Translations under genes and position numbers: made by a program
Shown here: piece after piece, positions 21,873 to 46,061 of the stretch
How positions within the stretch are numbered: position 1 is the stretch's first letter
Layout of the letters: each line of letters starts with the position of its first letter
NCBI GenBank assembly: GCA_021203365.1
Contig: JAJQBI010000074.1
Coordinates: 1-46,061 of the forward strand
Reading direction: 5' to 3'
Length of the DNA stretch: 46,061 bases
Source of the DNA: Clostridiales bacterium
GTDB taxonomy: Bacteria > Bacillota > Clostridia > Lachnospirales > Lachnospiraceae
The notes under the pieces: generated by a model
Told to the model about the DNA's origin: nothing
Seen by the model: the letters and a program-made list of their open reading frames with translations, nothing else
Databases searched by the model: none

Positions 21873-21904
21873 AGAGAGATGTGACAGACATCTCTCTTTT
21901 TTTG
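21873..21904 (+). terminator. Intrinsic terminator after the DUF308 gene
   Basis: AGAGAGATGT (21873-21882) pairs perfectly with ACATCTCTCT (21888-21897) around GACAG and is followed by a T-run to 21903. It separates the DUF308 gene from the germination operon, whose promoter must lie within the next 60 bp; no clear sigma-G or sigma-A match was found there. Confidence 0.92.
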
Positions 21905-21964
21905 ACCTGTAAGCGGACTTTATCACCGCGGCCGGGAAAGAGGGATAAGAAAGGACAGATCCAT

Positions 21965-23464: not shown

Positions 23465-23505
23465 TGAAAATGAAAGGAAAAAAAGGAGGGACCAGGGGAT
23501 TATGA
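23461..23505 (+). CDS. 14-codon mini-ORF linking gerA and gerBC
   Basis: ATG at 23461 overlaps the gerA stop as ATGA, and the TGA stop of this short frame (23503-23505) overlaps the gerBC start as ATGA. The product would be a basic 14-residue peptide. It carries the AAGGAGGG that serves the next gene. It may be a translational coupling device or coincidence; no known peptide is recognised. Confidence 0.35.
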   Translation: MMKMKGKKGGTRGL

Positions 23506-25394
23506 GATTTGCGGAAAACAACCGGATTTCCCACCGACAGCTTTACCGACAGCTTCTGCTGGCGTTTTTGCCCCCATTTCTGCTGTGTGTGACGGGGAAA
23601 TCCTGGTTTGGAGGATGGGGTGGGATTCTGGGCCTGGCGGCTGCCCTTGGCCTGCTTCTTTTTTACCGGATTTTCCTGATCCGTCTGGCGCCGGCCTGCG
23701 GGGCGCTGCTGAAAACGGCGGGAGGGCCTGCGGGATGGGGAATCGGCCTGTTCTTCCTTGTTTACGTGATCCTGACAGGGGCATACCTTCTGGCGGTTTT
23801 GGGGGAGATCGTGCCTCAAAGCCTTCTCACCGGCGTGTCCGGGCGGTGGATTTCCTTCTGGGCAGCCGCCGTGTGCTGTGTGGGAACCCATCGGGGAATG
23901 CAGCGGCGGGGACGCATGGCGGAAGTGTCCGGAATGATTTTTCTGGGCGGGATTTTCCTGATGATGGTTCTCTGTCTGGGACAGGTCCGGATTTCCTCTC
24001 TTGCGGAAGGTCTGGGCGAGCCGGAATTATCTGTGGAAAGCTTTCTCGCCGGCAGCTACGGTTTTCTGTGTGCCTTTTCCGGGGTCAGTCTGCTGCCCTT
24101 TGCCATGAAAGAGGTGGAAAAACAGGGCAGCACAGGGAAAACCATGACGAAAGCGCTTCTCACTGCAGGTGGAATCCTTCTTGGGATGCAGCTTCTTCTT
24201 CCGGCTGTATTTGGAGGAAAGCGGCTGGCTGCGGAGGAATACCCCATTCTGCCTCTTCTTTCCGGGGCGGATCTTCCGGGGAATGTGCTGGCCAGGTTTG
24301 ATGTGATCTGGATGGGGCTGGTGCTGTATGGCATTCTGTTTTCCCTGGGAAGCCTGCTGCACTACGGAAGCCAGCTTCTGCGGCAGCTGTTTCCGGGAAA
24401 TCCACAGGTACAGCCGCTTCCCTTCCGGCTTGCCCCGGCCGGTCTGGCGCTTCTGATGTTCGCCTTTTCGCTGGCGGAGATCCGCGGAAATGGAATCCGG
24501 GATTATTATGAAAGTTATCTTGCTTTTGTGTTTGTGCCAGTTCTCCTTCTGGCACAGGTCTTTTTGTCTGTGCGAAACCGGGGAAAAAGAAAGCGCCGGC
24601 GTCTGGGGGCGGGAATTGCCATGCTTCTTGGAGTTTCCATGTTTCTGGGAGGCTGTGCCGCCGTGGAGCCGGAAAACCGGAATTATCCGCTGGCGCTGGG
24701 TGTGGACTGGGATGGAGAAAATCTGACCCTGTCCTATGGGATGCCGGATCTTCCGGAGGCCACCGGGCAGGAAAAAACAGAGGAGAATGGGATTTCCCTG
24801 CTCTCTTTGTCCGGTGTGGATTTTGAGGAGATTGAGGCGGCTTATTCCCGTTCTCAGGAAAAGATTCTGGACATGGGACACCTGGAGGTGCTGATTCTGG
24901 GAGAACCGGTACTTGGGGATAAGGTGTGGGAAAGGGTTCTGGAGTACCTGAAGGAAGAGCCCTCTGTGGGGGAAGATGTGTATGTGTTCCGGTCCGCAGG
25001 CGCCAGGGAGGTGCTTTCCTGGGACGGGGCCAGGGATACGTCTGTGGGAGAGTATATCACCGGAATGCTGGAAAACCCCGCGGGCCGGGAAGAGAAGGCG
25101 TCCGTTACGCTGCGGGAGGTGTATTACGCCTGGTATGAAAGCGGGACGCTTCCGGAGCTCCCGGAAATTTCGGTTCAGGGAGACCTGCTGGTGCTGGAGG
25201 AGGCTCTGACCGCTGTTTCGGACCGGGATGGGGAAGAGAAGGAAACCGCCTCCCTTCTTGCCTGGTGGGGGACTCTGTACCCGGAATTCTGTTTCGCAGA
25301 GTCTTCCGGATCCTCTTCGGCCGGGAAAACAGGGAATTCAGAGCGGCCTGAGAATGTGAAGTTCTCCTTCTGGCTTGCGCAGATATTTAAATAG
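23502..25394 (+). CDS. Fused spore germination permease (GerB) and shortened Ger(x)C lipoprotein
   Basis: The 630-aa frame joins two germinant-receptor subunits normally made separately. Residues about 10-350 are a hydrophobic GerB/spore permease domain of the amino-acid permease superfamily with about ten helices, including AFSGVSLLPFAMKEVEK. Residues 357-385 are a typical lipoprotein signal: basic RNRGKRKRRR, a hydrophobic core, then lipobox LGGC with C385. The rest (to 630) matches the first part of Ger(x)C (NYPLALGVDWDGENLTLSYG; DMGHLEVLILGE), but at about 245 residues it lacks the usual C-terminal part. A GTG at 24570 (residue 357) could start a separate lipoprotein, but no good ribosome binding site precedes it. 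Start ATG 23502 follows AAGGAGGG. Confidence 0.85.
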   Translation: MRFAENNRISHRQLYRQLLLAFLPPFLLCVTGKSWFGGWGGILGLAAALGLLLFYRIFLIRLAPACGALLKTAGGPAGWGIGLFFLVYVILTGAYLLAVLGEIVPQSLLTGVSGRWISFWAAAVCCVGTHRGMQRRGRMAEVSGMIFLGGIFLMMVLCLGQVRISSLAEGLGEPELSVESFLAGSYGFLCAFSGVSLLPFAMKEVEKQGSTGKTMTKALLTAGGILLGMQLLLPAVFGGKRLAAEEYPILPLLSGADLPGNVLARFDVIWMGLVLYGILFSLGSLLHYGSQLLRQLFPGNPQVQPLPFRLAPAGLALLMFAFSLAEIRGNGIRDYYESYLAFVFVPVLLLAQVFLSVRNRGKRKRRRLGAGIAMLLGVSMFLGGCAAVEPENRNYPLALGVDWDGENLTLSYGMPDLPEATGQEKTEENGISLLSLSGVDFEEIEAAYSRSQEKILDMGHLEVLILGEPVLGDKVWERVLEYLKEEPSVGEDVYVFRSAGAREVLSWDGARDTSVGEYITGMLENPAGREEKASVTLREVYYAWYESGTLPELPEISVQGDLLVLEEALTAVSDRDGEEKETASLLAWWGTLYPEFCFAESSGSSSAGKTGNSERPENVKFSFWLAQIFK

Positions 25395-30314: not shown

Positions 30315-31229
30315 ATGAATAAAATGAGATATTTACCGGTCCTTTTATCGGCGGCGCTTATGCTGACAGCGATGCCGGTGCCCCTGATGGCAGAGGAAGA
30401 AGAAACAGAGGAATATGCAGATATTATAAAAGATGTTTCGTATTCAGATGACGGCGAGGAAAAACATGTGCTTGACCTTTTCGGGACACAGTCCTATGAT
30501 GAGGCGACTCCGGTTGTGGTGGAGGTTCACGGCGGCGGTTTCATTGGGGGAACCAAGGAGATTAATACAGATCACGCGATTTTTTACGCTGAGCAGGGCT
30601 ATACTGTTGTAGCGCCGGAATATGGAAAGGTTCCAAAGGACGGTAATTTCACCGATACGATGCGCGACCTGTTTGAGTGCTACAACTGGATTGCTGATAA
30701 CGCGGAGGAGTATCATTTTGATCTGGAGAATATTTTCATAAGCGGAGACAGCGCAGGCGGATATTATACTCTTCTTACCTATGCGATCTGGAACTCCGAG
30801 GAGCTGCAGGAGTATTTCGGCGTGGAAGTTCCGGATTACGAATTCAGCGCAGTTGTGACAAGCTGCCCGGCAACGGATCTGCTGGCGAAGGCGGATGCTC
30901 TGGAGGATGATTATGTGGCGCAGACGATTGGTGAGGATATTCTGCTGGACGAGGATCTGATGAGCCATATGGATCTGTACTCTATTGTTGACGCAAGCGT
31001 TTTTGAGGGTGTGTATATGCTGACGACGCCGGGGGATACAACGACCGGAAGCGAAGTGCTGAAATTTGATGATTACCTGACTGAAAATGGTGTGGAGCAT
31101 ACGACCATTTCCTATGAGGGAACGGAAAATGAGCTGATACATGTATTTAACATCACACAGATGGATTATGTGGAAAGCCAGCAGGCAAATCAGGATATAG
31201 TAGACTTCATGAACAGCTTTCTGAAATAA
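30315..31229 (+). CDS. Secreted alpha/beta hydrolase (esterase/lipase family)
   Basis: The 304-aa protein has a signal peptide (about 1-26, ending PLMAEE). The hydrolase domain carries the oxyanion motif HGGGF (72-76), nucleophile elbow GDSAGG with S146, and probable Asp and His of the triad in GDTTTGSE and ELIHVFN near the C-terminus. The HGGG plus GDSAG pairing places it in the HSL/feruloyl-esterase-like group of carboxylesterases. The substrate is unknown; with two tannase genes in the neighbourhood, a plant phenolic ester is one possibility. It is probably co-transcribed with the repeat protein and so controlled by the AraC regulator. Confidence 0.85.
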   Translation: MNKMRYLPVLLSAALMLTAMPVPLMAEEEETEEYADIIKDVSYSDDGEEKHVLDLFGTQSYDEATPVVVEVHGGGFIGGTKEINTDHAIFYAEQGYTVVAPEYGKVPKDGNFTDTMRDLFECYNWIADNAEEYHFDLENIFISGDSAGGYYTLLTYAIWNSEELQEYFGVEVPDYEFSAVVTSCPATDLLAKADALEDDYVAQTIGEDILLDEDLMSHMDLYSIVDASVFEGVYMLTTPGDTTTGSEVLKFDDYLTENGVEHTTISYEGTENELIHVFNITQMDYVESQQANQDIVDFMNSFLK

Positions 31230-31430: not shown

Positions 31431-31875
31431 GTGTGCCGGGCATGGCACAGTTCTAGCTGGTGAAAGTCCAGTCATGGATAACTTACCGTCCATGTAGTTA
31501 AACGCAAGCCGAAGCCAGTAATGGTGGGGTGAAGGAAGCGCGTAGCAAAGCCACGAGCCTACGGACAGAATACCTGATATGAGGCTAAATGGTGGATGAG
31601 GCTGCCTAACAAGCCGAAATCCGTGGTAAGCGTAAAACCAGGAGAGTAAATCAGGAGGTTGCGGGACGAAAGAACTGTGACCACAGGGAGGACCGTTGTC
31701 TTGTGTGCTTTCAAATATTTATCTGGACAAATTAGATAAAGAGTTGGAAAGCCGGGGATTGAGTCACGTTAGATATGCGGACGACGTAGCAGTTTATGTG
31801 AGAAGCGAGAAATCCGCAGACAGGGTGATGCACTCGGTTAGCAATTGGCTGGAAAGGAAACTGTTTCTGAAATAA
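31431..31875 (+). mobile_element. Group IIC-type intron remnant, 5' part and reverse transcriptase fragment
   Basis: The left end GTGTGCCGGGCATGGCAC is a group II intron 5' end, followed by domain I sequence (CTAGCTGGTGAAAGTCCAG). From 31708 to 31875 a 55-codon frame encodes the reverse transcriptase palm with RYADDVAVYV, the catalytic YADD box, ending in ERKLFLK and a stop. The rest of the intron-encoded protein, the maturase/thumb and domains V-VI are missing, so it cannot splice or move. Its position directly behind a terminator T-run is the hallmark of class IIC introns. Confidence 0.82.
31708..31875 (+). pseudogene. Fragment of group II intron reverse transcriptase (YADD box)
   Basis: The open frame begins LSNIYLDKLDKELESRG and includes YADD at 31774-31785. 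It has no start codon of its own in the right place and is a small part of an enzyme usually over 400 aa. It lies within the intron remnant. Confidence 0.82.
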
Positions 31876-35277: not shown

Positions 35278-35471
35278 GCTGTACCCGGCACAATCAGCGC
35301 TTCAGAATAAGAAGTATCTTTATGAATCCAATTTGAAAACATATTATAGAATATACTGAACTTACAGGGCATCGCTTCGGCGGTACCTTTTCTGTTTTAG
35401 CGGGGCAAGTAATCTTCCGATCCTTTCTTCTATGTGAAAAGGAAAGTTGATTTTTGCTTTGTAGAAAGTAG

Positions 35472-35500
35472 ACAGTCATCAATATTGGTGGCTGTTTTTT
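35472..35500 (+). terminator. Terminator hairpin next to the second intron remnant
   Basis: ACAGTCATC (35472-35480) pairs with GGTGGCTGT (35487-35495) using three G-T pairs, followed by six Ts. No complete gene precedes it on the plus strand, so it is probably the preserved insertion target of the intron. Confidence 0.65.
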
Positions 35501-35503
35501 AAG

Positions 35504-35962
35504 GTGTGCCGGGCATGGCACAGCTCTAGCTGGTGAAAAATTACCCCGGGATACATGAAGGGTTTCATGCAGGAAATTGGTGCATGGGTCAGGCATCGGA
35601 TTCGGGTGATTATCGTCAAACAGTGGAAGAAACCGAAAGCAATAGCAAAGGGACTGAAATGGTATTGCAGGGTATTTGGATTCATGTTCAGTGATGAGGA
35701 AATATTTAAAGCAGCCAATTCAAGGAAAGGTCTTTACGCACAATGCAATGGGGATGTGATTAACTACATTCTCAGCCCGAAGGTGCTTGGCACAAAGTTA
35801 AAGCGCAAGAGGAAGGAGACCGTATATCCCGGCCTCATCGACCCGCTTGCGTACTATCTCAATAGAATCTGATACCGTTTTGTAATTAATGTAGCGCCGG
35901 ATACGCGAACCGTACGTCCGGTGCAACGGGAGGGGCGAGGCATTAGTCTCCCTCTACCCTAT
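35504..35962 (+). mobile_element. Group IIC-type intron remnant with both ends and an internal deletion
   Basis: The left end GTGTGCCGGGCATGGCAC is almost the same as that of the remnant at 31431 (one difference in about 35 nt). The sequence then jumps to the C-terminal part of the intron-encoded protein and continues to domain V-like sequence (AGCGCCGGATACGCGAACCG...TCCGGTGC, about 35894-35925) and a CCCTAT 3' end at 35962. Domains I-IV and the reverse transcriptase core are deleted. The 3' end directly abuts the stop codon of the convergent tannase gene. Confidence 0.82.
35555..35872 (+). pseudogene. C-terminal fragment of a group II intron maturase
   Basis: The 105-codon frame, beginning MKGFMQEIGAWVRHRIRV and including IVKQWKKPK, NSRKGLYAQCNGDV and GLIDPLAYYLNRI, is the thumb and DNA-binding end of an IIC intron-encoded protein. 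The catalytic palm is missing. Its own ATG is a chance internal Met. Confidence 0.82.
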
Positions 35963-37630
35963 TTATCGCAGAATACCCTCCAGCCATGCATAGGCTTCCT
36001 GTACATCATAATCTCCCTTATGTCTCTGAAGCCACGCGTATTCAAAACTTAATGTGTCTGAATCTACGGAATCATTGTTCAGCAGGCTGTAGTACAGAGA
36101 CGCTTCTACGGCAAAGCTGGTGTCCCGGTCGGCCATGCCGAAGCGTACGTACCAGTTGGCTGCGATATCCGTATCCGCGGAATCATCATTGAGGTATTCA
36201 ATGGCGTTTGTCATGCGGATCTGCTGAAGCAGGTACTGTCCATCCTCTGTCTCTATATATTCATCCCAGGTAAGTCCGGTGTCGTCCAGTCCCACATTAT
36301 TTTCAAGGGTATCGTTGTCCCAGGAATAATAGATAAACGGGCTGTACTCATCCGTTGTTGTTCCAAACAGTGAATCCTCATTGCTTAAAGTCTGTAAGCT
36401 TTCGCTGAGGCCCCGGTTGCTGAAAGCCGGTACACCTTTAAGAGCTGTATGGCTTGCCAGCCAGTACAGATGCTCATCATAGTCATAGGTATAGGTGCCG
36501 TCCTCATTGAGAGTAAGCCAGGTTACATTGTTTGCGTTGTCAAATTCCTCGATATCCGCCTGCATCTGTTCAATTCCGTATTCTTCGATGGATTCCTCGA
36601 TTTCGGTTTCCATCAGAGAGATGATGCAGTCCTTCAGATTATCGGTGGTCAGATCCTCCCCGTCTTCGGTTTTCAGGCCCAGACCAGCCAGATAATCTGT
36701 GTACAGTGCCGCCAGCTCCTCTGAAAGAGCCAGCTCATCCTCTGTAGTATCTTCCAGCCGTTCCCGGGTATCATGGTAGGTCCATTCATAAGCGTAATTT
36801 GCATTGGCCAGATCTGTGATGGGGCAGTAGGCGATTACCGCAAAAACTCCGTCATCAATGGTGGATACATAGTTTCCGTCCGCATCCAGTTCGATGCCTG
36901 CGGCGCCGATCTCATAAAGAGACTCATAATAATCTGAGCTGTTGGCGCTGGCTGCGATTACAGAGGAGAGAGCGCCGCCGCCGGAGGTTCCGGTGATCAC
37001 GATCTTGTCTGTATTTCCCGCGGGAAGCAGATCCGCGTTATACCGGAGATAGCGGATGGCGGCTTTGGTATCGGTAATTGTCGCGGGGGAGTGCCCCTGA
37101 TATTCGCCGTCTTCTGTGGCCTCGTTGGCGCGGCTGCGGCAGCCGTAGGAAACGATGACATAGCCCTCGCTGAGAGCTTTTCCCACCTTGTCCGTGTCAG
37201 AGGTGCTGGAGTAATCTCCCACATCCTCTGTCTCTTCCTCGGTTCCAAGAACCTTTGTGCGGCTGGTATAGGAGTCTGCCTGCCAGCCGGCGTTGTTTAC
37301 ACAGAAGATGATGGGGGAATCCGCCGTGGCGTTTTCCGGAACATAAATGCTGATGAGCTGATCCTCCTCCCGGTTGGGATAGGCCATGTAGACATCCTCA
37401 TACCAGGTTACAGACATGGACTCTCCATCCACCAGCGGATGGATTTCTGTCACTGTGGCGTCTGACAGGGACAGTGCGTCTGTTGCGGCAGACGAAGCGT
37501 CCTCCGCCGTGGAAACGGCGTCCGACAGGGTTGCATCCTCTGTTTCCTCAGCCAGCACGGCCGATGCTCCGCCGGTCATAGTGACTGCTGTGGCCAGGGA
37601 CAGTAAAATACATAATGCCTTTTTCTTCAT
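35963..37630 (-). CDS. Exported tannase (tannin acyl hydrolase, subtype B-like)
   Basis: Tannases hydrolyse galloyl ester bonds of gallotannins and gallate esters, releasing gallate. The 555-aa protein has a signal peptide (about 1-27, AVLAEE) and an acidic linker to about residue 60. The catalytic domain matches bacterial tannase of the Lactobacillus plantarum TanB type: DTKAAIRYLRYN, nucleophile elbow GTSGGG with S216, CPITDLANANYAYEW, then triad aspartate D503 in RDTSF and histidine H537 in QRHKGDYD. The 469-aa TanB lacks a signal peptide; this one would act outside the cell, like TanA-type enzymes. RBS GGAGG precedes the ATG. It has its own promoter and lies 103 bp after the cytosolic tannase. 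Confidence 0.85.
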   Translation of the reverse strand: MKKKALCILLSLATAVTMTGGASAVLAEETEDATLSDAVSTAEDASSAATDALSLSDATVTEIHPLVDGESMSVTWYEDVYMAYPNREEDQLISIYVPENATADSPIIFCVNNAGWQADSYTSRTKVLGTEEETEDVGDYSSTSDTDKVGKALSEGYVIVSYGCRSRANEATEDGEYQGHSPATITDTKAAIRYLRYNADLLPAGNTDKIVITGTSGGGALSSVIAASANSSDYYESLYEIGAAGIELDADGNYVSTIDDGVFAVIAYCPITDLANANYAYEWTYHDTRERLEDTTEDELALSEELAALYTDYLAGLGLKTEDGEDLTTDNLKDCIISLMETEIEESIEEYGIEQMQADIEEFDNANNVTWLTLNEDGTYTYDYDEHLYWLASHTALKGVPAFSNRGLSESLQTLSNEDSLFGTTTDEYSPFIYYSWDNDTLENNVGLDDTGLTWDEYIETEDGQYLLQQIRMTNAIEYLNDDSADTDIAANWYVRFGMADRDTSFAVEASLYYSLLNNDSVDSDTLSFEYAWLQRHKGDYDVQEAYAWLEGILR

Positions 37631-37680
37631 AGTGAATTGGTTCCTCCTTTTTTGCGCCAGTTATGGCTTCTTTTGTGATT

Positions 37681-37709
37681 ATTATATAATTATCAGGGAC
37701 CAATGTAAA
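37681..37709 (-). promoter_or_regulatory. Promoter of the exported tannase gene
   Basis: On the minus strand, TTTACA (plus 37704-37709), 17 bp, TATAAT (plus 37681-37686). It gives the exported tannase a transcript separate from the cytosolic tannase gene upstream, although no terminator is seen between the two. Confidence 0.75.
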
Positions 37710-37733
37710 GCTTTTTGAATATAATATTGTTTA

Positions 37734-39479
37734 TTACAGTGTAATCTTTCGGATCCAGTCCACAATCTCGCCTTCATAATCCGCCTCGCAGTGGGGTTGA
37801 TCCCACACCAGTGCATAATCCACCTGATAGCCATTCTGTGCCAGGAGGCAGGCGAGGGTCATGGAAACGGAAAAGGAAGTGTCCGCGTCAAAGGCGCCTA
37901 CCCGGATGCGGATCTGCTCAGCTGTGTCCGCGTTTTCCCGCTGGGGGATATAGTTGAACGGATTGTAGAGATATTTCGCTTTTTCCTGCCGCTCATTGTT
38001 TAAAGCTTCCGAAAAGGCCGGGTAGTAAAGGGCGGATTCCTCAGGGAAACGGTCCTGAAGCTTTTCGATGGCCTTTACCACGTATGTGTCAAAGTGCATA
38101 TAATGTTTTTGATCGTTCATTTCCCCGAAGAGCCGGTTCTCACCACTTTCCATATTGAAAGTGTCGAAGGAGGTGCAGGGCTTCATTCTCCGCCGATGGC
38201 ACAGAACATAGCTGTCCAGATCCTTTACCACAGCGTTTTCTCCATCCCAGGAAAGCCAGTGATCCTTGGGCGCTCCGTGAACCTCAGTCATGGGCGGTTC
38301 AAAGATGGGAGCCGCCGGGGCGCCCTTGGGCGGACGGGCGACCATATCGCCCAGAGAAGGCGGTTCCGGGGGGAATTCAGGCGGAATCTCTCCACTGTTT
38401 TCTGCCCCCGGAGTGATATTCACGCCCGGTCCCGCGAAGTGAGCCATTGTGTCCTTCGGCTCTTCCTCGTCCGTCGACATGGGGGACATGGCCATATAGG
38501 TGTAATCTCCGGCCAGATACTGTTCCGGCGTAAATTTCTCCGCAAGTTCTCCGCGGCTTAATTTCTGCAGATATTTTGTGGCGGATTCATTGATGATTTC
38601 CATCAGATAGTCGTAGGCGCTGCCGCTTCTCCCGTCCGGGTTCAGGGACAGGATCTGGCCGGTCTTTGGATTTTTAACCTCCAGTCCGTTGAAATACTGA
38701 ATATATTCCTTGCTCAGCAGGGAGGAAAGGGCCTCCTTAAAGGGGGTCATCACCTCGCTGGGACCCGCGGGGGAATCCTCGGATACCTTATCCTCGCGGA
38801 ACATCCACTCATAGGCCATATCTGCATGCTCCAGATCCACAATGGGGCAGTAGATCTGGGATGCGAATACCTGGTCACTTTCGTCCATAAACGCGCCGTT
38901 TTCCCGAAGGTATTCCTCATAGTCCCTGTGATTTCCCGTGACTGCCAGGAGGGTGGACATGGCGCCGCCGGCGCTCCAGCCCACGGAGATGATCCGGTTT
39001 AAGTCTCCAGGAATGCAGGCCTTATTGTGGCGGAGGAAGCGAATGCCGGTTTTCAGATCTACCAGGTTCCAGGGGGTTTTGCCGCACAGCACTCCGTCCT
39101 GATCCCGGGATTCGCTGCCACGGTTTCCGCAGGTGACAAACACCATGCCGGCCTTCAGGTATTTTCCGGATTCGTCCCGGGGACCGCCCAGGTAGGTGTG
39201 GGGCATCTGCATATAACCGGCGGAATTGTTCTCAAAAATCACCGGAGCGGTTTTCGCGGTGTAGCCGTTTATTTCGGAGGTTTCGCAGATAACGCCGGGG
39301 GCGCTCATATACGCCTTCGGCACGTAAATGCTCAGTCTCTGAAATTTGGGGGTGGTGGCTTTCATAGTGTATAAAAGATCCTCCAGGCACCAGACGTCAT
39401 ATTTTTCGTCCAGAAACCACTGATCTTTTACATCGTTAAGTTCCAGGGTTTTGTTTAAGATATCAATGGATGGCAGCAT
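37734..39479 (-). CDS. Cytosolic tannase with proline-rich insert
   Basis: The 581-aa protein has no signal peptide. It resembles L. plantarum-type tannase along its length: LSIYVPKAY, TGIRFLRHN, elbow GWSAGG with S169, CPIVDLEHADMAYEWMF, then DADTSFSVS with D533 and DQPHCEADY with H563, giving a complete Ser-Asp-His triad. It should release gallate from imported galloyl esters. It is over 100 residues longer than TanB; residues about 330-400 form a Pro/Glu-rich, probably disordered insert (EIPPEFPPEPPSL) in the lid region. The start follows AAAGGAGAAAAT. It is divergent from the LysR gene with overlapping promoters. Confidence 0.85.
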   Translation of the reverse strand: MLPSIDILNKTLELNDVKDQWFLDEKYDVWCLEDLLYTMKATTPKFQRLSIYVPKAYMSAPGVICETSEINGYTAKTAPVIFENNSAGYMQMPHTYLGGPRDESGKYLKAGMVFVTCGNRGSESRDQDGVLCGKTPWNLVDLKTGIRFLRHNKACIPGDLNRIISVGWSAGGAMSTLLAVTGNHRDYEEYLRENGAFMDESDQVFASQIYCPIVDLEHADMAYEWMFREDKVSEDSPAGPSEVMTPFKEALSSLLSKEYIQYFNGLEVKNPKTGQILSLNPDGRSGSAYDYLMEIINESATKYLQKLSRGELAEKFTPEQYLAGDYTYMAMSPMSTDEEEPKDTMAHFAGPGVNITPGAENSGEIPPEFPPEPPSLGDMVARPPKGAPAAPIFEPPMTEVHGAPKDHWLSWDGENAVVKDLDSYVLCHRRRMKPCTSFDTFNMESGENRLFGEMNDQKHYMHFDTYVVKAIEKLQDRFPEESALYYPAFSEALNNERQEKAKYLYNPFNYIPQRENADTAEQIRIRVGAFDADTSFSVSMTLACLLAQNGYQVDYALVWDQPHCEADYEGEIVDWIRKITL

Positions 39480-39526
39480 ATTTTCTCCTTTCCTGTCATT
39501 TTGACGGATGCTTTTTCTTTGTTTTA

Positions 39527-39555
39527 ATTATATTTTAATCATTGTTGACAAGCAA
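39527..39555 (-). promoter_or_regulatory. Promoter of the cytosolic tannase gene
   Basis: On the minus strand, TTGCTT (plus 39550-39555), 17 bp, TATAAT (plus 39527-39532). Its -35 shares bases with the -35 of the divergent LysR promoter, so the two polymerases would compete. Confidence 0.7.
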
Positions 39556-39574
39556 TTCAATTTCTTTATATAAT
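39545..39574 (+). promoter_or_regulatory. Promoter of the LysR regulator gene
   Basis: TTGACA (39545-39550), 18 bp, TATAAT (39569-39574). It is divergent from and overlaps the tannase promoter, a classic LysR arrangement. Confidence 0.75.
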
Positions 39575-39616
39575 TAATTCGGGGTTGGAATTGATCTTTT
39601 TTTCAGAAGATGTTGG

Positions 39617-39634
39617 GGTCAAAAGTATTTGACC
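39617..39634. promoter_or_regulatory. Perfect dyad, candidate operator in the lysR leader
   Basis: GGTCAAA (39617-39623) and TTTGACC (39628-39634) are exact inverted repeats with a 4-bp spacer, about 45 bp downstream of the lysR -10. It fits autorepression by the LysR protein, or a site for another regulator. Confidence 0.55.
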
Positions 39635-39664
39635 ACTATGATACCTGAGAATCAGGAGGGGCGT

Positions 39665-40606
39665 ATGGATATTTCTTATTTTCATGAATTTGTGATTCTG
39701 GCGGAGACGAAGAATTTCTGGGAAGCCTCTGAACGGCTGTACATCAGTCAGTCTGCTCTTTCCAAGCACATTAAGAATATGGAAATCCGGCTGGGAACGC
39801 CTTTGTTTAGCCGGACTTCCCGAAAAGTGGAACTCACGGAATTTGGACGAAGAATGCTTCCCTATGCACAGTCCATTGCCAGACTGGAGTATGGATATGA
39901 GACGGAGGCATTTAATTTTACCCATCAGAAATATGCTTCTTTGAATTTTGGCACCATTCCGGATATGGCACATTTTCACATTACGGATGCGCTGCTTCGT
40001 TTTAAGCTGGCGTATCCCAACATTCCCATTGACATTCAGGAGGCGGATACACTGATTTTGCGAAAAATGCTGCTGGAGCGAAAGTGTGAGCTGGCTTTTC
40101 TGCGGGACAGCAGAAGTTATTTCGAAAAGGATCCGGACGAAGAGCTCCTGATGGAAAAGGTTCCCTATATTCAGGATGACATTGTGGCGGTGCTGCCTGC
40201 CGATCATCCTCTGTGTGAAAGTGAATGCGTGGAGTTAAAGCAGCTTTCCGGAGAGCGGTTTGCCATGCTTCATCAGAATACGCTGCCATACGATTTGTGC
40301 ATGTGTGCCTGCAGAGAGGTGGGCTTTATACCGGATATTGTGTTTACATCCCACAATCTGGAGTCTATTCTGGATATGGTACGGATAGGCGGCTGTGTGG
40401 CGCTGCTGTTTCGCAATCATGTGAGCTTTCCATATAGTGTTGATTTAGTGGATCATCCGCCTTTTGTGCCTGTTTCCCTGACGCCGCTGATTGAGACGAC
40501 GGTATGTCTGGCTTATCGTAAAAATGACAGGCTTTCCCCGGCGGCGGAATATTTTATTGAGTATTACAGGCAGGTATGTGAGGAATGTGGAACAGCTTCA
40601 GAGTAG
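39665..40606 (+). CDS. LysR-family regulator of the tannase/gallate locus
   Basis: The 313-aa protein has an N-terminal winged helix (about 1-65) with AETKNFWEASERLYISQSAL and the LGTPLFSRTSRKVELTEFG wing, then a periplasmic-binding-fold effector domain (about 90-300) typical for sensing aromatic acids or other small anions. ATG 39665 is chosen because AGGAGG (39654-39659) precedes it and the family N-terminus starts there, not at the in-frame ATG 39629. It lies between, and is divergent or convergent with, the tannase and gallate decarboxylase genes, so gallate-dependent control is the likely role (inference). Confidence 0.9.
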   Translation: MDISYFHEFVILAETKNFWEASERLYISQSALSKHIKNMEIRLGTPLFSRTSRKVELTEFGRRMLPYAQSIARLEYGYETEAFNFTHQKYASLNFGTIPDMAHFHITDALLRFKLAYPNIPIDIQEADTLILRKMLLERKCELAFLRDSRSYFEKDPDEELLMEKVPYIQDDIVAVLPADHPLCESECVELKQLSGERFAMLHQNTLPYDLCMCACREVGFIPDIVFTSHNLESILDMVRIGGCVALLFRNHVSFPYSVDLVDHPPFVPVSLTPLIETTVCLAYRKNDRLSPAAEYFIEYYRQVCEECGTASE

Positions 40607-40620
40607 TCTGAAGCTGTTTT
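40591..40620. terminator. Bidirectional terminator of lysR and the lpd operon
   Basis: AACAGCTTCAG (40591-40601) pairs with CTGAAGCTGTT (40608-40618) and is followed by Ts on the plus strand; it includes the lysR stop codon. It may also serve the lpd genes arriving on the minus strand. Confidence 0.8.
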
Positions 40621-40662
40621 GCACATGTCCTGTGTTTTGGTTTCAGGGTTCCGTGAGGAAGC

Positions 40663-41037
40663 TTACATATCCTCCAGGCATTTTTCCAGCAGGCGCCGGC
40701 AGCCGTCCTGGATCTGCCGCAGCTGCTCTGCCGTGATCTCATCCATGTGGATTCCGCAGGCGCACACGGCAGTACAGTTTTCCCGGATGGCCACCGCTTC
40801 GGCAAACATCCGGGCCACAGCCTCGTCCTTGTGGCCGATTCCATTCAGGACACTGGAGGTTGCGCTTCGACCATCTCCGGTCAGACTGGGCCTGGCCTGA
40901 GCCATGACCACGCTGCCCACATGGGGGAGGGTGCCTCCGTAAACGGCCAGGGTGTAATCCTGTCCCATGGGAAGGATCCGGCAGGTGAGGGGGCAGCCCC
41001 TGAAAGCTTCTTCTGTATATTTTCTGGATTCACACAT
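40663..41037 (-). CDS. lpdD: LpdD-like subunit of gallate decarboxylase (prFMN chaperone-like)
   Basis: The 124-aa protein resembles LpdD, the small accessory protein needed with LpdB and LpdC; LpdD proteins are reported to bind prenylated FMN. Family-like segments are YTLAVYGGTLPHVGSVVMAQA and the C-terminal DEITAEQLRQIQDG. The start is taken as ATG 41037 because GGGAGAG is then spaced correctly; ATG 41043 is a close alternative. Its first 8 nt overlap the end of lpdB, so translation is coupled. The frame is open farther upstream but inside lpdB. Confidence 0.75.
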   Translation of the reverse strand: MCESRKYTEEAFRGCPLTCRILPMGQDYTLAVYGGTLPHVGSVVMAQARPSLTGDGRSATSSVLNGIGHKDEAVARMFAEAVAIRENCTAVCACGIHMDEITAEQLRQIQDGCRRLLEKCLEDM

Positions 41038-41602
41038 GTCCATCTCTCCCATTCCAGGGTCTAAACCGGTTACAGGAAATTCCAAACTGCAGCAGGACCT
41101 TTCCGACAACATGGTAAATCTGGTTTTCCATGGTCTGAGGCTGATTATAAAAGGTAAGCATGGGGGGAACAATGGCACATCCCAGATCCGCAGCCTCCTT
41201 CAGGTTGCGCAGGTGAAGGCGGGAGAGGGGCGTTTCCCGCGGTACAAGCACCAGGCGGCGCCCCTCCTTCATGCATACATCCGCTGCCCGGCTGATCAGA
41301 TTGTCCGCGTAGCCGGAGACAATCCCGGCCAGGGTCTTCATGCTGCAGGGCATGACAATCATGCCGTCTGTGACGAAGGAACCGCTGGAGATCACCGAGG
41401 CCAGGTTCCGGTTTTCCTCCACATGATCCGCCAGGGCATACAGATCCTCAAGCGGAATGGAACTCTCCAGTTCCCAGGTCAGCCGGGCGCCCTCGCTTAC
41501 AATCAGGAACAGCTCTGTGTTTCCCGCCTCCCGCAGGGCTTTCATCAGGTAATAGCTCATTTCCACGCCGCTGGCGCCGGTCACTCCAACTATGATACGC
41601 AT
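41030..41602 (-). CDS. lpdB: UbiX-family flavin prenyltransferase (LpdB)
   Basis: This enzyme attaches a dimethylallyl group to FMN to make prenylated FMN, the cofactor of UbiD-type decarboxylases. It has 190 aa. UbiX motifs: N-terminal IVGVTGASG (4-12), IVMPCSMKTLAGI, GYADNLISRAADV, and LVLVPRETPLS, which bind FMN and prenyl phosphate. It lies 25 bp after lpdC and overlaps lpdD, so the cofactor is made beside its user. The RBS is GAGGGAA. Confidence 0.92.
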   Translation of the reverse strand: MRIIVGVTGASGVEMSYYLMKALREAGNTELFLIVSEGARLTWELESSIPLEDLYALADHVEENRNLASVISSGSFVTDGMIVMPCSMKTLAGIVSGYADNLISRAADVCMKEGRRLVLVPRETPLSRLHLRNLKEAADLGCAIVPPMLTFYNQPQTMENQIYHVVGKVLLQFGISCNRFRPWNGRDGHV

Positions 41603-41627
41603 ATTTATTCCCTCACTTAATTACTTT

Positions 41628-43115
41628 TTAAAACAGCTCCGGAACCCATTTTGCCGGATCCACTTCCAGGAATTTGCAGCGCTCAAACTGATCCTTCATG
41701 TTGTAGGGCACTGTGCAGTCGAAGATGGCCTTGCAGGAAATTCCGTGCACCCGGATGGACGGGTCGTAGGCCGGATCGTTGGAAGGGTCAAGCACATGGG
41801 TGTGCACACCGGGAATGGGAATGAAATCCACGTCCCCCTGGAATCGGGTGGTCATGGCCCACATTACATCGCTCATGTCAAAGATGTCTACGTCCTCATC
41901 CACCAGGAATACGTGCTTCATCTCGCTGAAGGCGGAGAAGGCAAGCAGGGCGGCCTGACGCTGACGTCCCTCATCGTTGATGCTGTTTTTGCGGAACTGG
42001 ATGATGGTCACGAATTTTCCGCCGCCGCAGGGAGCTGCGTGAACATTTACAAGGCGTCCCGGCATGGCCCGCTCCACCAGGTCAATCACGCTGGCCTCTG
42101 TGGGAATGCCGGCCATGGAAACATGTTCGCCGCTGGGGCCGATGCAGCTTTCCATGATGGGATTCTTTCTTGTGGTCACGGCTTTTACCTTAATCACCGG
42201 GAGGAAGGCAGGCAGGTTGTCACCCTTGGCGTCGCCTGTGTAGCCCGGGAATTCCGGCATGGCCTTTCCTGTATTGGTATTGATATCCTCCCGCATGGTC
42301 AGGCCTGGAATCAGCTCGCCCTCGATGACATATTCCGCGTGGGCGATGCAGGTTTCCGGAATGGTCACGCATTTTGCCAGCCCCACAGGTTTTCCCCGCA
42401 GAGCGCCGGCGATCTGCAGCTCATTAAAACCGATGGGGGTTGTGGGGGGCTCAAAGCCGGCGGACATATATACCGCTGGATCCAGCCCGATGCTCACGGA
42501 GATGGGCATGGGCTTATTCAGTTTCAGGTATTTTTCCCAGAAGGCGCCCAGATGGCGGGAGCCCGGGGTGATCCACATGGTCATCTCGTCTCTGGACTGA
42601 ATACAGAGACGGTGGATGGTTACGTCTGTATCCCCGTTTTCCGGGTCGGTGCCGGAGCAGAGTCCCATGGTTATATAAGGGCCGGCGTCCTCCGGTGTAT
42701 TTGTGGGGGCCGGAACGAGCCGGCGCAGGTCAAAGTCCGGATCCTCCGCCCGGTATACGCATTCCTGACAGGGCGCTTCCCCCTGAATCAGCTGCGGGGC
42801 GATGGGGTTTTTCACCGCGTCCCGCATGAACCAGCCCAGGCGTTTGTAATCCGTTCCAAGAAGCAGGCCCACTCTTTTGCGGCTGGCCAGGATTCCGGTG
42901 ACAACCCTTCCTCCAGGAAATCCCTTTACATTGTTAAACAGCATGGCCGGACCGTCCTCCCGGGTGGGGCGCTCCACGGTTCCGCCCGCGCCTACATAGC
43001 GGTAAATACCGGAAATTTCCGCGTTTGGGTCCGCTTCCACATCCGTCTCTACCAGTTGTCCGCTCTGGGTTTTCAGAAATTCCAGAGCGCTTCTCAGGTC
43101 ATAAATCTCTCCCAT
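41628..43115 (-). CDS. lpdC: Gallate decarboxylase catalytic subunit (UbiD family, LpdC-like)
   Basis: LpdC is a prenylated-FMN-dependent enzyme that removes CO2 from gallate to give pyrogallol. The 495-aa protein matches the LpdC subgroup of UbiD over its whole length: ETDVEADPNAEISGIYRYVG, APTNTPEDAGPYITMGL, DVTIHRL (conserved Arg), EPPTTPIGFNELQIAGA, AEYVIEGEL (conserved Glu), TGKAMPEFPGY, HVSMAGIPTEASV and VFLVDEDVDIFDMSDV. These segments fit LpdC much better than BsdC/vanillate decarboxylase. Protocatechuate is a possible second substrate. A good AGGAGG RBS precedes ATG. It starts an lpdC-lpdB-lpdD operon; in L. plantarum lpdC lies apart from lpdBD. Confidence 0.9.
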   Translation of the reverse strand: MGEIYDLRSALEFLKTQSGQLVETDVEADPNAEISGIYRYVGAGGTVERPTREDGPAMLFNNVKGFPGGRVVTGILASRKRVGLLLGTDYKRLGWFMRDAVKNPIAPQLIQGEAPCQECVYRAEDPDFDLRRLVPAPTNTPEDAGPYITMGLCSGTDPENGDTDVTIHRLCIQSRDEMTMWITPGSRHLGAFWEKYLKLNKPMPISVSIGLDPAVYMSAGFEPPTTPIGFNELQIAGALRGKPVGLAKCVTIPETCIAHAEYVIEGELIPGLTMREDINTNTGKAMPEFPGYTGDAKGDNLPAFLPVIKVKAVTTRKNPIMESCIGPSGEHVSMAGIPTEASVIDLVERAMPGRLVNVHAAPCGGGKFVTIIQFRKNSINDEGRQRQAALLAFSAFSEMKHVFLVDEDVDIFDMSDVMWAMTTRFQGDVDFIPIPGVHTHVLDPSNDPAYDPSIRVHGISCKAIFDCTVPYNMKDQFERCKFLEVDPAKWVPELF

Positions 43116-43148
43116 TTTGGTTACCTCCTCGTCCCTTCTTTGACCTAT

Positions 43149-43177
43149 ATTTTAGTATTGTTTTGTGAAAATTACAA
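43149..43177 (-). promoter_or_regulatory. Candidate promoter of the lpdCBD operon
   Basis: On the minus strand, TTGTAA (plus 43172-43177), 17 bp, TAAAAT (plus 43149-43154), in the 111-bp gap between the CoA-transferase gene and lpdC. No terminator was found in this gap, so read-through from upstream is also possible. Confidence 0.5.
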
Positions 43178-43226
43178 TTCCATTCAAAGACAGATTAATT
43201 CCAAAACAGAAAGTGTGGCAGCTTTT

Positions 43227-44789
43227 TTAATCCGTGGCGATACCCATCCGTTCCTCGCGGAAAATCCGGGAATCCATTTCCTTCAGGTCGTCTGCGATCA
43301 GCGGGCGAAAGGCCATCTGTCCCAGAATGTCTTTTTCCAGATCTACACCTGGTGCAATTTCGGTCAGCATCAGTCCATCTTTTGTCAGACGGAATACCGC
43401 GCGTTCAGTCACATAGAGTACAGTCTGGCCGCTCTCAATCGCGTACTGGGCGGAGAAGGTTACCTGTTCCACTTTGTTTACGAATTTTACCGGCTTTCCG
43501 TCTTTCCGGATGTTTAATCTGCCATCCTTTGCCTCAATTTCACATTTTCCTGCGGTGAAGGCGAACAGGAACACTACCTCCGGGGTGGACTGGGAAATGT
43601 TAATAAAACCGCCGGGACCGGTGCACCGTCCGTTGAAGGAGGATACATTGACATTGCCCATTCGGTCGATCTCCGCTGCGCCAAGGCAGGTCATGTCCAG
43701 GCCGCCGCCGTCGTAAAAATCGAAGGTATCCGCCAGGGCCATAATGCTTTCTGCATTTACGGAGGCCGCAAAGCCTACTCCCGCCACCGGAACGCCGCCG
43801 ACGGGCCCGGACTCCAGAGAAAGGATGGTATCTGTAATGCCTTCCTCGTTAGCCACCGCGCCGACTCCGGAGGGCATACCGATGCCAAGATTGATGATCA
43901 TGCCCGGCTTCAGTTCCATCACCGCCCGCCGCGTGGCAATTTTGCGCGTGTCAAAGGGCAGCGGCGCCAGCGTGTTGGTGGGAATCTGTATTTCGCCGGT
44001 CAGCTCCGCCCGGTATTCGTCGGTCGCGTAGCCCTGATGATGAAATTCTGGCTTTGCAACTACCACATAATCCACGAATTTACGGTGTATACGTACACTC
44101 TTTGGAGCCAGTGTATCGCGCCTTACAATTTTTTCAACCTGTGCGATGACGATGCCGCCGCTGTTGTGGGCAGCCAGAGCCATCTCAAGTTCCATGCCGG
44201 TGAGCGCTTCGTGGTCAAAAGACAGGTTGCCGTCTTCGTCCGCATAGGTGGCGCGGATGAATGCCGCGTGAATGGGGAAGGCTGGATAAAACAGGCACTC
44301 CCGGCCGGCTACGTCAATGAGCTTTACGATTTCCCGCCCCATATCTTTGGCGGCCTGGTTGGAGCAGCAGCCGTCGTTTCTCGGGTCGGCGAGTGTGTGA
44401 ATTCCCACATGAGATGCCACGCCCGGTTCTCCGGCTGCGATGGCCCGCATCAGATGAGCTACCACTCCCAGCGGGATTACATAGGCGGGAATTTCATTTC
44501 TGCCAACGGTCTTCCCAAGCTTTACGCAGTTTGCCAGATGGGCCGCGATGACACAGGCGGTCATGCCGGGAATGCTGACCCGGTTCATGCCGATCTCATT
44601 TTCCGTGTTATCTCCTGTGCCGATGCCGGTGACCCAGGTAAGCTGTTCCGGACCTGTACCGGCTTTATAGCTCTGGACCACGGCATCCAGGAGTTCGTCC
44701 GGACAGCAGTAGGAGCCGAAGCCGCCTACTGCGATGGTATCGCCGGAGTGAATGAGGGAAGCAATTTCGTTTGACTGTATGGTTTTCAT
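43227..44789 (-). CDS. Family I CoA-transferase (propionate/acetate CoA-transferase-like)
   Basis: The enzyme moves CoA between carboxylic acids through a glutamyl-CoA intermediate. At 520 aa it is a fused alpha-beta chain like Pct/YdiF. The N-terminal half has DTIAVGGFGSYCCPDEL, the usual GGFG oxyanion loop; the second half has LGIGMPSGVGAVANEEG and the active-site SLESGPVGGVP with E326. The acid substrate cannot be read from the sequence. Its place beside the gallate decarboxylase could mean activation of an acid made from ring cleavage, or acetate/butyrate exchange; both are inference. It follows the acyltransferase gene by 17 bp and precedes lpdC by 111 bp on the same strand. Confidence 0.9.
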   Translation of the reverse strand: MKTIQSNEIASLIHSGDTIAVGGFGSYCCPDELLDAVVQSYKAGTGPEQLTWVTGIGTGDNTENEIGMNRVSIPGMTACVIAAHLANCVKLGKTVGRNEIPAYVIPLGVVAHLMRAIAAGEPGVASHVGIHTLADPRNDGCCSNQAAKDMGREIVKLIDVAGRECLFYPAFPIHAAFIRATYADEDGNLSFDHEALTGMELEMALAAHNSGGIVIAQVEKIVRRDTLAPKSVRIHRKFVDYVVVAKPEFHHQGYATDEYRAELTGEIQIPTNTLAPLPFDTRKIATRRAVMELKPGMIINLGIGMPSGVGAVANEEGITDTILSLESGPVGGVPVAGVGFAASVNAESIMALADTFDFYDGGGLDMTCLGAAEIDRMGNVNVSSFNGRCTGPGGFINISQSTPEVVFLFAFTAGKCEIEAKDGRLNIRKDGKPVKFVNKVEQVTFSAQYAIESGQTVLYVTERAVFRLTKDGLMLTEIAPGVDLEKDILGQMAFRPLIADDLKEMDSRIFREERMGIATD

Positions 44790-44806
44790 CTGATTTCCTC
44801 CTCTTT

Positions 44807-45997
44807 TTATGCCTGCTGTTTTTTAACAAACGCACCGTTCAGGAACGGGGAAAGCAGCTTCTTGCTGATGGTCCGGAAGATCAGGCCAAGTACGGCATTG
44901 ATTCCAATACTGGCCAGAAGCAGCGTATAGTAGTTTTCATTGGTCATTTCCACATAGGTCTGGAAAATGTAGAGAGTGGGGAAGTGCGCTACGAAGAAGT
45001 AAAGCGAGAATTCTCCCAGTGTTCCGAAAATCTTCCGGTTCAGCAGCGCAGTAAATCTGTCCTTGCCCAGCATGGTCAGAGTCATGGCAACAGTGATAAA
45101 TGCCAGGATCACAAGCTCGTCATAGTCATTGCCGTGGATCATCCACCAGAAAATCAGAACTGTGACACCTGCGTTGATCACAGTCAGCACATTTTGAGTA
45201 AAGTCACTGTAGTTGAATTTCTTCAGCCATTCGACAATGTAATACACCTCTATACCAAGGCACATACCGGAGATGCCATACAGCAGTGAGTTTTCAATCA
45301 GGCCAAAGGCCAGAAGGTTTTTGGTGGTGCAGGAGATCTGTTCTGTGAAGAACAGGGTGGTTCCCTCTCCTGCCAGCCCCCAGTAGCCCAGAGACAGTAC
45401 AATGATGACAGGCGCGATAATTCCGGTGAACAGGTCCTTATTTTTGCAGAGCAGGTAATACAGCAGGAAGCCTCCTACGAAAATGGCTGATATGTACCAG
45501 AGCGGGGAATTCCACGCGTACATTACATAGGGATAATAATCGATTCCAGTGGCGGCAGTAGCGTTTACGCCGATGGATGAAAGCCCGAGGAATTCGAAGA
45601 CGGAGTTGACCAGATTGGTGATTACCTGTCCGGCCGGGACCTTTTCATAGATGAAGTTCATTACGAAAAATCCCCACACAAGGCCAAGGAAATATGCGGG
45701 ATACAGTCCTTTATATCTGCCCAGCATATAGTACCATGCCTGCTTTGTGCAGGACACTCCGTCTGTAAGGCCTCTGCGTTTCTTGCTCTCGTAGCCGGCT
45801 GCCAGGAAATAACCGGTGGTAATCAGGAACACCGGCAGAATGTTTCCTGAGGTAAACCACGTTACGGTCAGCTCTCCTGTGCCTTCGATGAATCCCAGTG
45901 GATGCACCAGCCAGAAATGGAAAAAGGTGACAAACAGAGTTGCGAATGTGCGCCAGAAATCAACGGAATAATTTCGGGCTTTTTTTGGTTGTGACAT
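44807..45997 (-). CDS. Acyltransferase_3 family membrane protein
   Basis: The 396-aa protein has about ten membrane helices and starts with the family's RNYSVDFWRTFATLFVTFFHFW segment, including the conserved Arg and His. Members transfer acetyl or other acyl groups to cell-surface sugars or to exported molecules. The acceptor is unknown. ATG 45997 is chosen because AAGGAGG lies 7 nt upstream; an in-frame ATG at 46039 has none. It starts the minus-strand run acyltransferase, CoA-transferase, lpdC, lpdB, lpdD, so an acyl-CoA link with the CoA-transferase is conceivable but unproven. Confidence 0.85.
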   Translation of the reverse strand: MSQPKKARNYSVDFWRTFATLFVTFFHFWLVHPLGFIEGTGELTVTWFTSGNILPVFLITTGYFLAAGYESKKRRGLTDGVSCTKQAWYYMLGRYKGLYPAYFLGLVWGFFVMNFIYEKVPAGQVITNLVNSVFEFLGLSSIGVNATAATGIDYYPYVMYAWNSPLWYISAIFVGGFLLYYLLCKNKDLFTGIIAPVIIVLSLGYWGLAGEGTTLFFTEQISCTTKNLLAFGLIENSLLYGISGMCLGIEVYYIVEWLKKFNYSDFTQNVLTVINAGVTVLIFWWMIHGNDYDELVILAFITVAMTLTMLGKDRFTALLNRKIFGTLGEFSLYFFVAHFPTLYIFQTYVEMTNENYYTLLLASIGINAVLGLIFRTISKKLLSPFLNGAFVKKQQA

Positions 45998-46014
45998 ATC
46001 ATATCCTCCTTCTC

Positions 46015-46037
46015 GGTATTTCGTTATATGAAATACC
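46015..46037. promoter_or_regulatory. Perfect dyad, candidate operator before the acyltransferase gene
   Basis: GGTATTTC (46015-46022) and GAAATACC (46030-46037) are exact inverted repeats with a 7-bp spacer that, on the minus strand, contains a -10-like ATATAAC. A regulator bound here would cover the promoter. Confidence 0.6.
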
Positions 46038-46061
46038 ATTTCTTATAAAACAATTATAAAA

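Follow-up and report, generated by a model that had tools for sequence, protein, structure and literature searches.

Does the right end of a 46,061-bp contig from a Lachnospiraceae genome (Clostridiales bacterium, JAJQBI010000074.1) encode a whole route from galloyl esters to pyrogallol, and was any part of it acquired? The window analysed here is the entire contig, one of 84 in a 3.13-Mb assembly that is 83.7% complete. Eight genes lie at its right end. They encode two tannase-type esterases (TanS and TanC), a LysR-type regulator, the decarboxylase proteins LpdD, LpdB and LpdC, a CoA-transferase (CoAT) and a membrane acyltransferase (AT3), with lysR on the strand opposite to the other seven. 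We consider it likely that this is a gallotannin-use locus of which at least the decarboxylase part was acquired. The first six genes had been named in an initial annotation, made from the sequence alone, as lying within 8 kb; all are present, span 35963-43115 (7.15 kb) and are backed by family matches. The locus (35963..46037) had also been called complete; CoAT and the acyltransferase, inside the same coordinates, had been left out. Gaps are short (AT3/CoAT 17 bp, CoAT/lpdC 111 bp, lpdC/lpdB 25 bp) and the end of lpdB overlaps lpdD, so AT3-CoAT-lpdCBD may form a single transcript, and the first two genes look co-transcribed with lpdCBD. The 111-bp gap contains a weak promoter match.

The decarboxylase proteins were assigned by family, fold and tree. 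LpdC scored above the cut-offs of UbiD, UbiD_N and UbiD_C. LpdB passed TIGR00421 (199 bits, cut-off 109) besides PRK06029, and at 251.8 bits fell below the curated 290 of VdcB (NF041206). LpdD has the PAC-like fold of the solved Lactiplantibacillus plantarum LpdD, a chaperone for reduced prenylated FMN (prFMNH2). The Mn site described for that protein (H35/H61/D63; PMC10865409) is kept as H41, H71 and D73 in the window, and both histidines are invariant in 35 rows. LpdC was placed in an 83-row tree, made by a quick method with SH-aLRT support. L. plantarum LpdC was represented by L190 from genome G745, whose TanB is 99.2% identical to the 3WA6 fragment; L030 is absent (both pieces below 330 residues), L080 is a duplicate of L007, and L032 and L033 (27-32% identical) are included here though not in the 66-locus comparison below. 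Window LpdC is 59% identical to L190 and shares a 71-row side of the tree with it, while VdcC-type proteins are far out. Against the curated VdcC model NF041204 (cut-off 650), the window scored 440 and L190 385, compared with 678 and 771 for the VdcC-named L203 and L204. A vanillate/4-hydroxybenzoate decarboxylase, the alternative that the initial annotation had itself raised, is therefore rejected by both the curated score and the tree.

TanC passed the curated cut-off for subtype-B tannases (NF041556 tannase_B, 300 bits) with 333.1 bits. In an alignment with the L. plantarum tannase 3WA6, whose numbering is used here, the triad S163, D419 and H451 is intact in both TanS and TanC, as had been claimed. 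So are K343, E357 and D421, which contact the galloyl hydroxyls (PMC4218992). From 119 listed TanC relatives, the 114 below 650 aa were aligned and five above 650 aa were left out. Ser163, K343, E357 and D421 are present in all 114, and Asp419 and His451 in 113 each. TanC carries a long insert (residues 301-424, 124 aa) where the L. plantarum tannase TanBLp has 31 residues and TanS 57. In a 24-row tannase tree that included two BD-FAE esterases, TanC and seven relatives form a clade (support 97/99) beside, not inside, the TanBLp group (89/99). These results support TanC as a tannase-family member of a separate clade, and TanS is a probable family member. Of the exported and cytosolic tannases originally proposed, the cytosolic one, TanC, thus has a curated match; export of TanS is suggested by an apparent signal peptide, read by eye from its first residues, MKKKALCILLSLATAVTMTGGASAVLA. 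An 809-aa hydrolase encoded in the same genome carries Ala at position 343 and Glu at position 419, and was left out of the tannase count. The TanC of same-genus genome G039 is nearly identical to P0236 (Ruminococcus sp. 5_1_39BFAA), from a strain that belongs to Blautia.

Taken together, the genes suggest a pathway in which TanS would cut galloyl esters outside the membrane, gallate and small galloyl esters would enter by a route outside our view, and TanC would finish the esters inside the cell. LpdB would make reduced prenylated FMN, LpdD would carry it, and LpdC would decarboxylate gallate to pyrogallol, the presumed end product, and CO2. LysR may sense a gallate-type ligand at the tanC/lysR spacer.

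Window LpdC falls in an 18-row clade (support 100) of rumen and gut Lachnospiraceae and Selenomonadaceae/Selenomonadales, with Atopobiaceae and Coriobacteriaceae on a side branch, and relatives in the protein search reach 84-95% identity. Among 63 other genomes of the same genus, 12 have an LpdC match, with identities of at most 65% except for short pieces. None of these 12 lies in the 18-row clade; five are in its 29-row parent clade and seven are further off. CoATs from same-genus genomes reach no more than 47% identity; the second CoAT copy in this genome has 48%. Left of the locus are group II intron remnants, namely D1-D4 RNA (31512-31680) and a reverse-transcriptase piece (31681-31872; YADD, RVT_1 50 bits). 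A maturase-like piece below the Pfam cut-off (35555-35872) lies just left of tanS, and an Rfam scan of 35300-36000 gave no match. From the LpdC clade, the same-genus LpdC and CoAT identities and the intron remnants, we conclude that the decarboxylase part was probably acquired by horizontal gain; the claim covers the decarboxylase and not the tannases.

The two genes upstream of lpdC pose a separate question. CoAT resembles E. coli YdiF and conserves its Glu333, which we take to be the catalytic residue; DNA upstream of the acyltransferase gene is beyond view, because the window is the entire contig. We compared 66 other LpdC loci, 30 from a pattern scan with the window protein and 36 from same-genus or family genomes. 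This is a biased sample, in which L020/L028 and L084/L111 each come from one genome and the neighbour profiles were built partly from the loci themselves. CoAT as a common LpdC neighbour was rejected (1 of 66). Whether CoAT and the acyltransferase are passengers with no role in gallate metabolism is evenly balanced in our judgement. Both are absent from 65 of the 66 loci, and we know of no CoA-transferase or acyltransferase chemistry that matches gallate. Against passengers, a CoAT above 60% identity was found in only two of 397 family genomes (at most three candidates scored per genome), this one (G000) and G193, and in both it lies directly before lpdC with an acyltransferase ahead of it. 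Furthermore, ten CoATs at 43-56% identity, one being the genome's own second copy, showed no LpdC and no acyltransferase in the surrounding sequence compared, for some of them only 7-8 kb. G193 belongs to another Lachnospiraceae genus, and its locus L083, alone among those compared, has AT3 (35%), CoAT (84%), LpdC (66%) and LpdB (51%) in the same order; beyond an IclR regulator, its opposite strand carries a tannase and LpdD. Among the best 120 CoAT relatives in the protein database, P0242, P0243 and P0244 are 84-85% identical and the next 67%.

A four-gene order shared at such unequal identities seems hard to explain by chance, yet it occurs in only one other genome. We tentatively entertain, below the passenger explanation, that the pair is a functional extension in which CoAT would charge a short acid with CoA and AT3 would place the acyl group. 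With the same reserve, AT3 might acylate, for example, the cell envelope or a phenol, and so make the cell tolerant of tannin or pyrogallol. If true, this would add an arm not yet described to the ways in which bacteria handle tannins, its order kept in two Lachnospiraceae genera.

Several points weigh against a gallotannin-use locus, and the first concerns the substrate of LpdC. Its best solved relative is AroY (57% identity, 626 bits; PDB 5NY5 and 5O3M, from Enterobacter cloacae), a member of the same UbiD subfamily and a protocatechuate decarboxylase by its PDB name. L. plantarum LpdC also accepts protocatechuate, the branch parting the LpdC side from AroY has a support of 81 in a tree with several long outgroup branches, and sequence does not settle gallate over protocatechuate. 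LpdC might thus be mainly an AroY-type protocatechuate (catechol-acid) decarboxylase, and the locus might serve protocatechuate esters as much as gallate. We regard this as unlikely. AroY falls in a separate 4-row clade (99) alongside proteins from Proteobacteria and a Bacteroidota bin, and seven positions are fixed differently between the 71 LpdC-side and the 4 AroY-side rows. In addition, two tannase-type genes adjoin LpdC, and its relatives P0082 and P0114 (70-72%) are named 'gallate decarboxylase subunit C' by the Joint Genome Institute (JGI). Since the LpdC/AroY branch is moderately supported and AroY is 57% identical, our preference for gallate leans mainly on the tannase context.

The second set of points concerns the esterases. 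TanS reached 293.1 bits, 7 short of the NF041556 cut-off, and is therefore termed tannase-like rather than a curated member. The full cap is missing in both enzymes, the cap hairpin having 36 residues in TanBLp, 23 in TanC and 16 in TanS. This hairpin is not a strict tannase criterion, because the active CbTan1 of Clostridium butyricum was also modelled without a cap (PMC8958541). The initial annotation had asked whether the hydrolases might cluster with non-tannase esterases, and the tree gives half an answer: the TanC clade stands beside, not inside, the TanB group, TanS and its paralogue lie on a long stem without a settled position, and the split from the two BD-FAE esterases is weakly supported (75/79). 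TanC and TanS could be esterases for other phenolic or acyl sugars instead of tannases, which the placement and score of TanS would allow. TanC-clade proteins also mostly go without a tannase name in databases, those named being called hypothetical or prolyl oligopeptidase, and GH3 and BD-FAE accompany TanC in three loci (L069, L208 and L209), HAD in two of them. We find this still less likely than a protocatechuate role for LpdC, given that the three galloyl contacts are kept in every aligned TanC relative and in both window enzymes, with LpdC next door. The paralogue, L096 (G000:C26:14224-15711), is a third tannase-like gene, 87% identical to TanS and, at 310.6 bits, above the cut-off. It stands alone among rplI-, dnaB- and ssb-like genes (neighbour names read from sequence) and reads as a recent duplicate.

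The remaining points concern the pathway as a whole. The full route first proposed is the best reading of the genes, but the window shows no transporter for gallate or galloyl sugars, which the word 'complete' had overlooked. The candidate LysR operator described below is exact in two loci and weak or absent in others. Across the 297 family genomes covered by both searches, LpdC (31) and a tannase match (31) coincide more often than expected, in 12 against 3.2 (Fisher 7e-6; 8 against 2.6 expected without the six weakest matches, Fisher 0.002), but the test ignores genome relatedness and includes some weak matches. Finally, pathways not found are only probably absent, because the assembly is incomplete. 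In this assembly, BKACE (triacetate lyase type) and Cyclase (dihydrophloroglucinol cyclohydrolase type) had no match. Transhydroxylase was judged through PF00384, the Pelobacter enzyme itself not being used as a query, and the sole PF00384 protein (G000:C20, 1166 aa) is formate-dehydrogenase-like, closest to 9BOV and 8OH5 (> 1000 bits) and beside NuoF-/NuoE-type proteins. Further breakdown of pyrogallol was rejected on these results, and, with no ring-opening genes of a known kind found, pyrogallol is predicted to be the end product. A trihydroxybenzene fermentation fed by the locus, running from pyrogallol through phloroglucinol to acetate or butyrate with CoAT acting in it, might be suggested by the CoA-transferase in the C. 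scatologenes phloroglucinol cluster (PMC10470551) but is highly improbable given the same BKACE, Cyclase and PF00384 results.

We examined how a gallotannin-use locus might be regulated. LysRs near LpdC in L002, L003, L008, L010 and L011 are 40-47% identical to the window LysR, for which an ATG at 39665 reads as a likelier start than 39629. L008 comes from Lachnospira pectinoschiza M83, a cultured relative. The region contains 14 promoter-like matches where shuffled sequence gives 9.8 +/- 3.4, so any one of them carries little weight. A 16-mer picked out by comparison of spacers, TTGACAAGCAATTCAA (39545-39560, including the lysR -35 box), has an exact copy in L003, again in a LysR-divergent spacer. 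In L002 and L010 it matches at 12 of 16 positions (reached by 14 and 10 of 300 shuffles), and in L004, L005, L006, L008 and L011 it is not above chance. A LysR operator in the tanC/lysR spacer is plausible as a candidate. Operators upstream of lpdC, tanS or CoAT were rejected, the best matches there being 9-10 of 16.

Within 9.5 kb of LpdC, the 66 loci contain LpdB in 60 cases, LpdD in 52, LysR in 36, a tannase in 13, a DASS-type transporter in 13, DUF554 in 10, a GPH transporter in four, and CoAT and AT3 in one each. None of the 66 has both DUF554 and DASS, and either one lies between lpdC and lpdB in several loci; this mutual exclusion and shared position suggest that DUF554 is also a transport partner, a candidate gallate or pyrogallol carrier. 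The window has neither. DUF554 stands beside gallate-decarboxylase-type genes in L002, L004, L005, L006, L008, L019, L025, L026, L068, L079 and L206, spanning Bacillota, a Bacteroidota bin and a Rahnella plasmid, the last with the order UbiD-UbiX-DUF554-LysR. In L069, from the same genus, a GPH transporter, a BD-FAE esterase, a TanC-like tannase (59%), GH3 and a beta-phosphoglucomutase-like HAD protein precede lpdC-lpdB-lpdD. In G361, the genome with the nearest LpdC, GPH, BD-FAE, GH3, HAD and TanC are together on another contig (L208), and Pseudobutyrivibrio L209 has GPH, BD-FAE, GH3 and TanC without HAD. These three resemble a galloyl-glycoside cassette. Among 120 listed proteins of the TanC search, the five longer than 650 aa are without exception fusions, with LpdD (P0205, P0206 and P0189), an HAD protein (P0216) or BD-FAE (P0174 and P0189), partners that match the genes beside TanC in L069. 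In L076, L108 and L115, a flavoprotein, an iron-type alcohol dehydrogenase and a large protein surround lpdB (names read from sequence).

The features of the locus are collected in Table 1. The left part of the contig carries rpoB, rpoC, EF-G and GerA-type germination genes, and the tannin genes are therefore on chromosome-like DNA. A ribosomal protein L10 leader (Rfam) is at 111-244. The germination genes (21881-25394) comprise GerA followed by a 698-aa frame in which a germination permease is joined to a GerAC N-terminal domain, an apparent GerB-GerC fusion; they score above Pfam and below NCBIfam cut-offs. Together with the family, Lachnospiraceae, they fit the spore-forming Clostridia originally suggested; G109, a genome of this family, matches Hungatella hathewayi DSM 13479 exactly in its lpdC coordinates. 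Another BD-FAE-type esterase (304 aa, 80 bits) is at 30315-31229, ~5 kb left of tanS.

Table 1. Genes and candidate promoters at the right end of the window.
Feature	Position	Strand	Evidence
TanS, tannase-like esterase with predicted N-terminal signal peptide, 555 aa	35963..37630	-	tannase_B 293 bits; PDB tannases 6YQ4, 3WA6
Candidate tanS promoter, TTTACA-17-TATAAT	37681..37709	-	11/12 matches, consensus only
TanC, tannase without signal peptide, Lachnospiraceae clade with long insert, 581 aa	37734..39479	-	tannase_B 333 bits
Candidate tanC promoter, TTGAAT-17-TAAAAT, overlaps lysR promoter	39532..39560	-	9/12 matches
Candidate lysR promoter, TTGACA-18-TATAAT	39545..39574	+	12/12 matches to the sigma-70 consensus
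LysR-type regulator, divergent from tanC	39629..40606	+	Pfam LysR_substrate, HTH_1
LpdD, predicted prFMNH2-binding chaperone	40663..41043	-	PF21758 108 bits, cut-off 27
LpdB, UbiX-type flavin prenyltransferase	41030..41602	-	PRK06029 223 bits, cut-off 188
LpdC, predicted UbiD-family gallate-type decarboxylase	41628..43115	-	UbiD 162.5 bits, cut-off 23.3
Weak candidate lpdC promoter, TTGTAA-17-TAAAAT	43149..43177	-	9/12 matches
CoAT, fused alpha-beta CoA-transferase, YdiF/FadX type	43227..44789	-	PF01144; YdiF 2AHU 394 bits
AT3, membrane acyltransferase (Acyl_transf_3)	44807..46039	-	PF01757 64 bits, cut-off 31

Co-location of a tannase with gallate decarboxylase is not new, because Streptococcus gallolyticus and C. 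butyricum have it (PMC4218992 and PMC8958541). In S. gallolyticus, tanB is close to the clustered genes sgdCBD, and methyl gallate induces each of the three sgd genes as well as both tannases. Its exported tannase tanA, however, is 691-750 kb away, whereas both window tannase genes are beside the decarboxylase (PMC4218992). The string 'coa' has no match in the running text of that paper, its gene-map figure not included. In C. butyricum, CbTan1 is near gallate decarboxylase, the only one of three tannases to be so; its model lacks a cap and has 77 residues inserted close to the active site, which recalls the shortened cap and long insert of TanC (PMC8958541). L. plantarum has the same enzyme set of TanB, LpdC, LpdB and LpdD, but its lpdC and lpdBD are > 1 Mb apart (PMC4218992), and in the L. 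plantarum-type L190 tanB is ~6.6 kb from lpdC with no LpdB or LpdD match in a 19-kb stretch. The contrast with L. plantarum drawn in the initial annotation therefore holds for this separation and not for novelty, as it overlooked the other two species. We found no description of the arrangement among PubMed Central titles and abstract openings, a library that lacks many journals, and no mention of tannase or gallate in PMC12203004. In our assessment the locus is genuine and for the most part of an ordinary kind, apart from a two-gene extension still to be explained. Undescribed in the literature examined are a pair of tannase genes next to a single decarboxylase, one of the pair with a predicted signal peptide; the AT3-CoAT extension upstream of lpdC; a cross-phylum rumen and gut LpdC clade that holds none of the 12 same-genus LpdCs compared; and, as far as the sequences indicate, a TanC clade with a long insert, sometimes fused to LpdD.

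In conclusion, entire tannin-to-pyrogallol loci are predicted in gut and rumen Lachnospiraceae, with tannases that seldom bear that name in databases, and the LpdC-type decarboxylase clade to which this locus belongs spans two phyla. The DUF554, DASS-type and GPH transporters and the CoAT/acyltransferase pair could explain how galloyl compounds enter these bacteria and how the products are tolerated.

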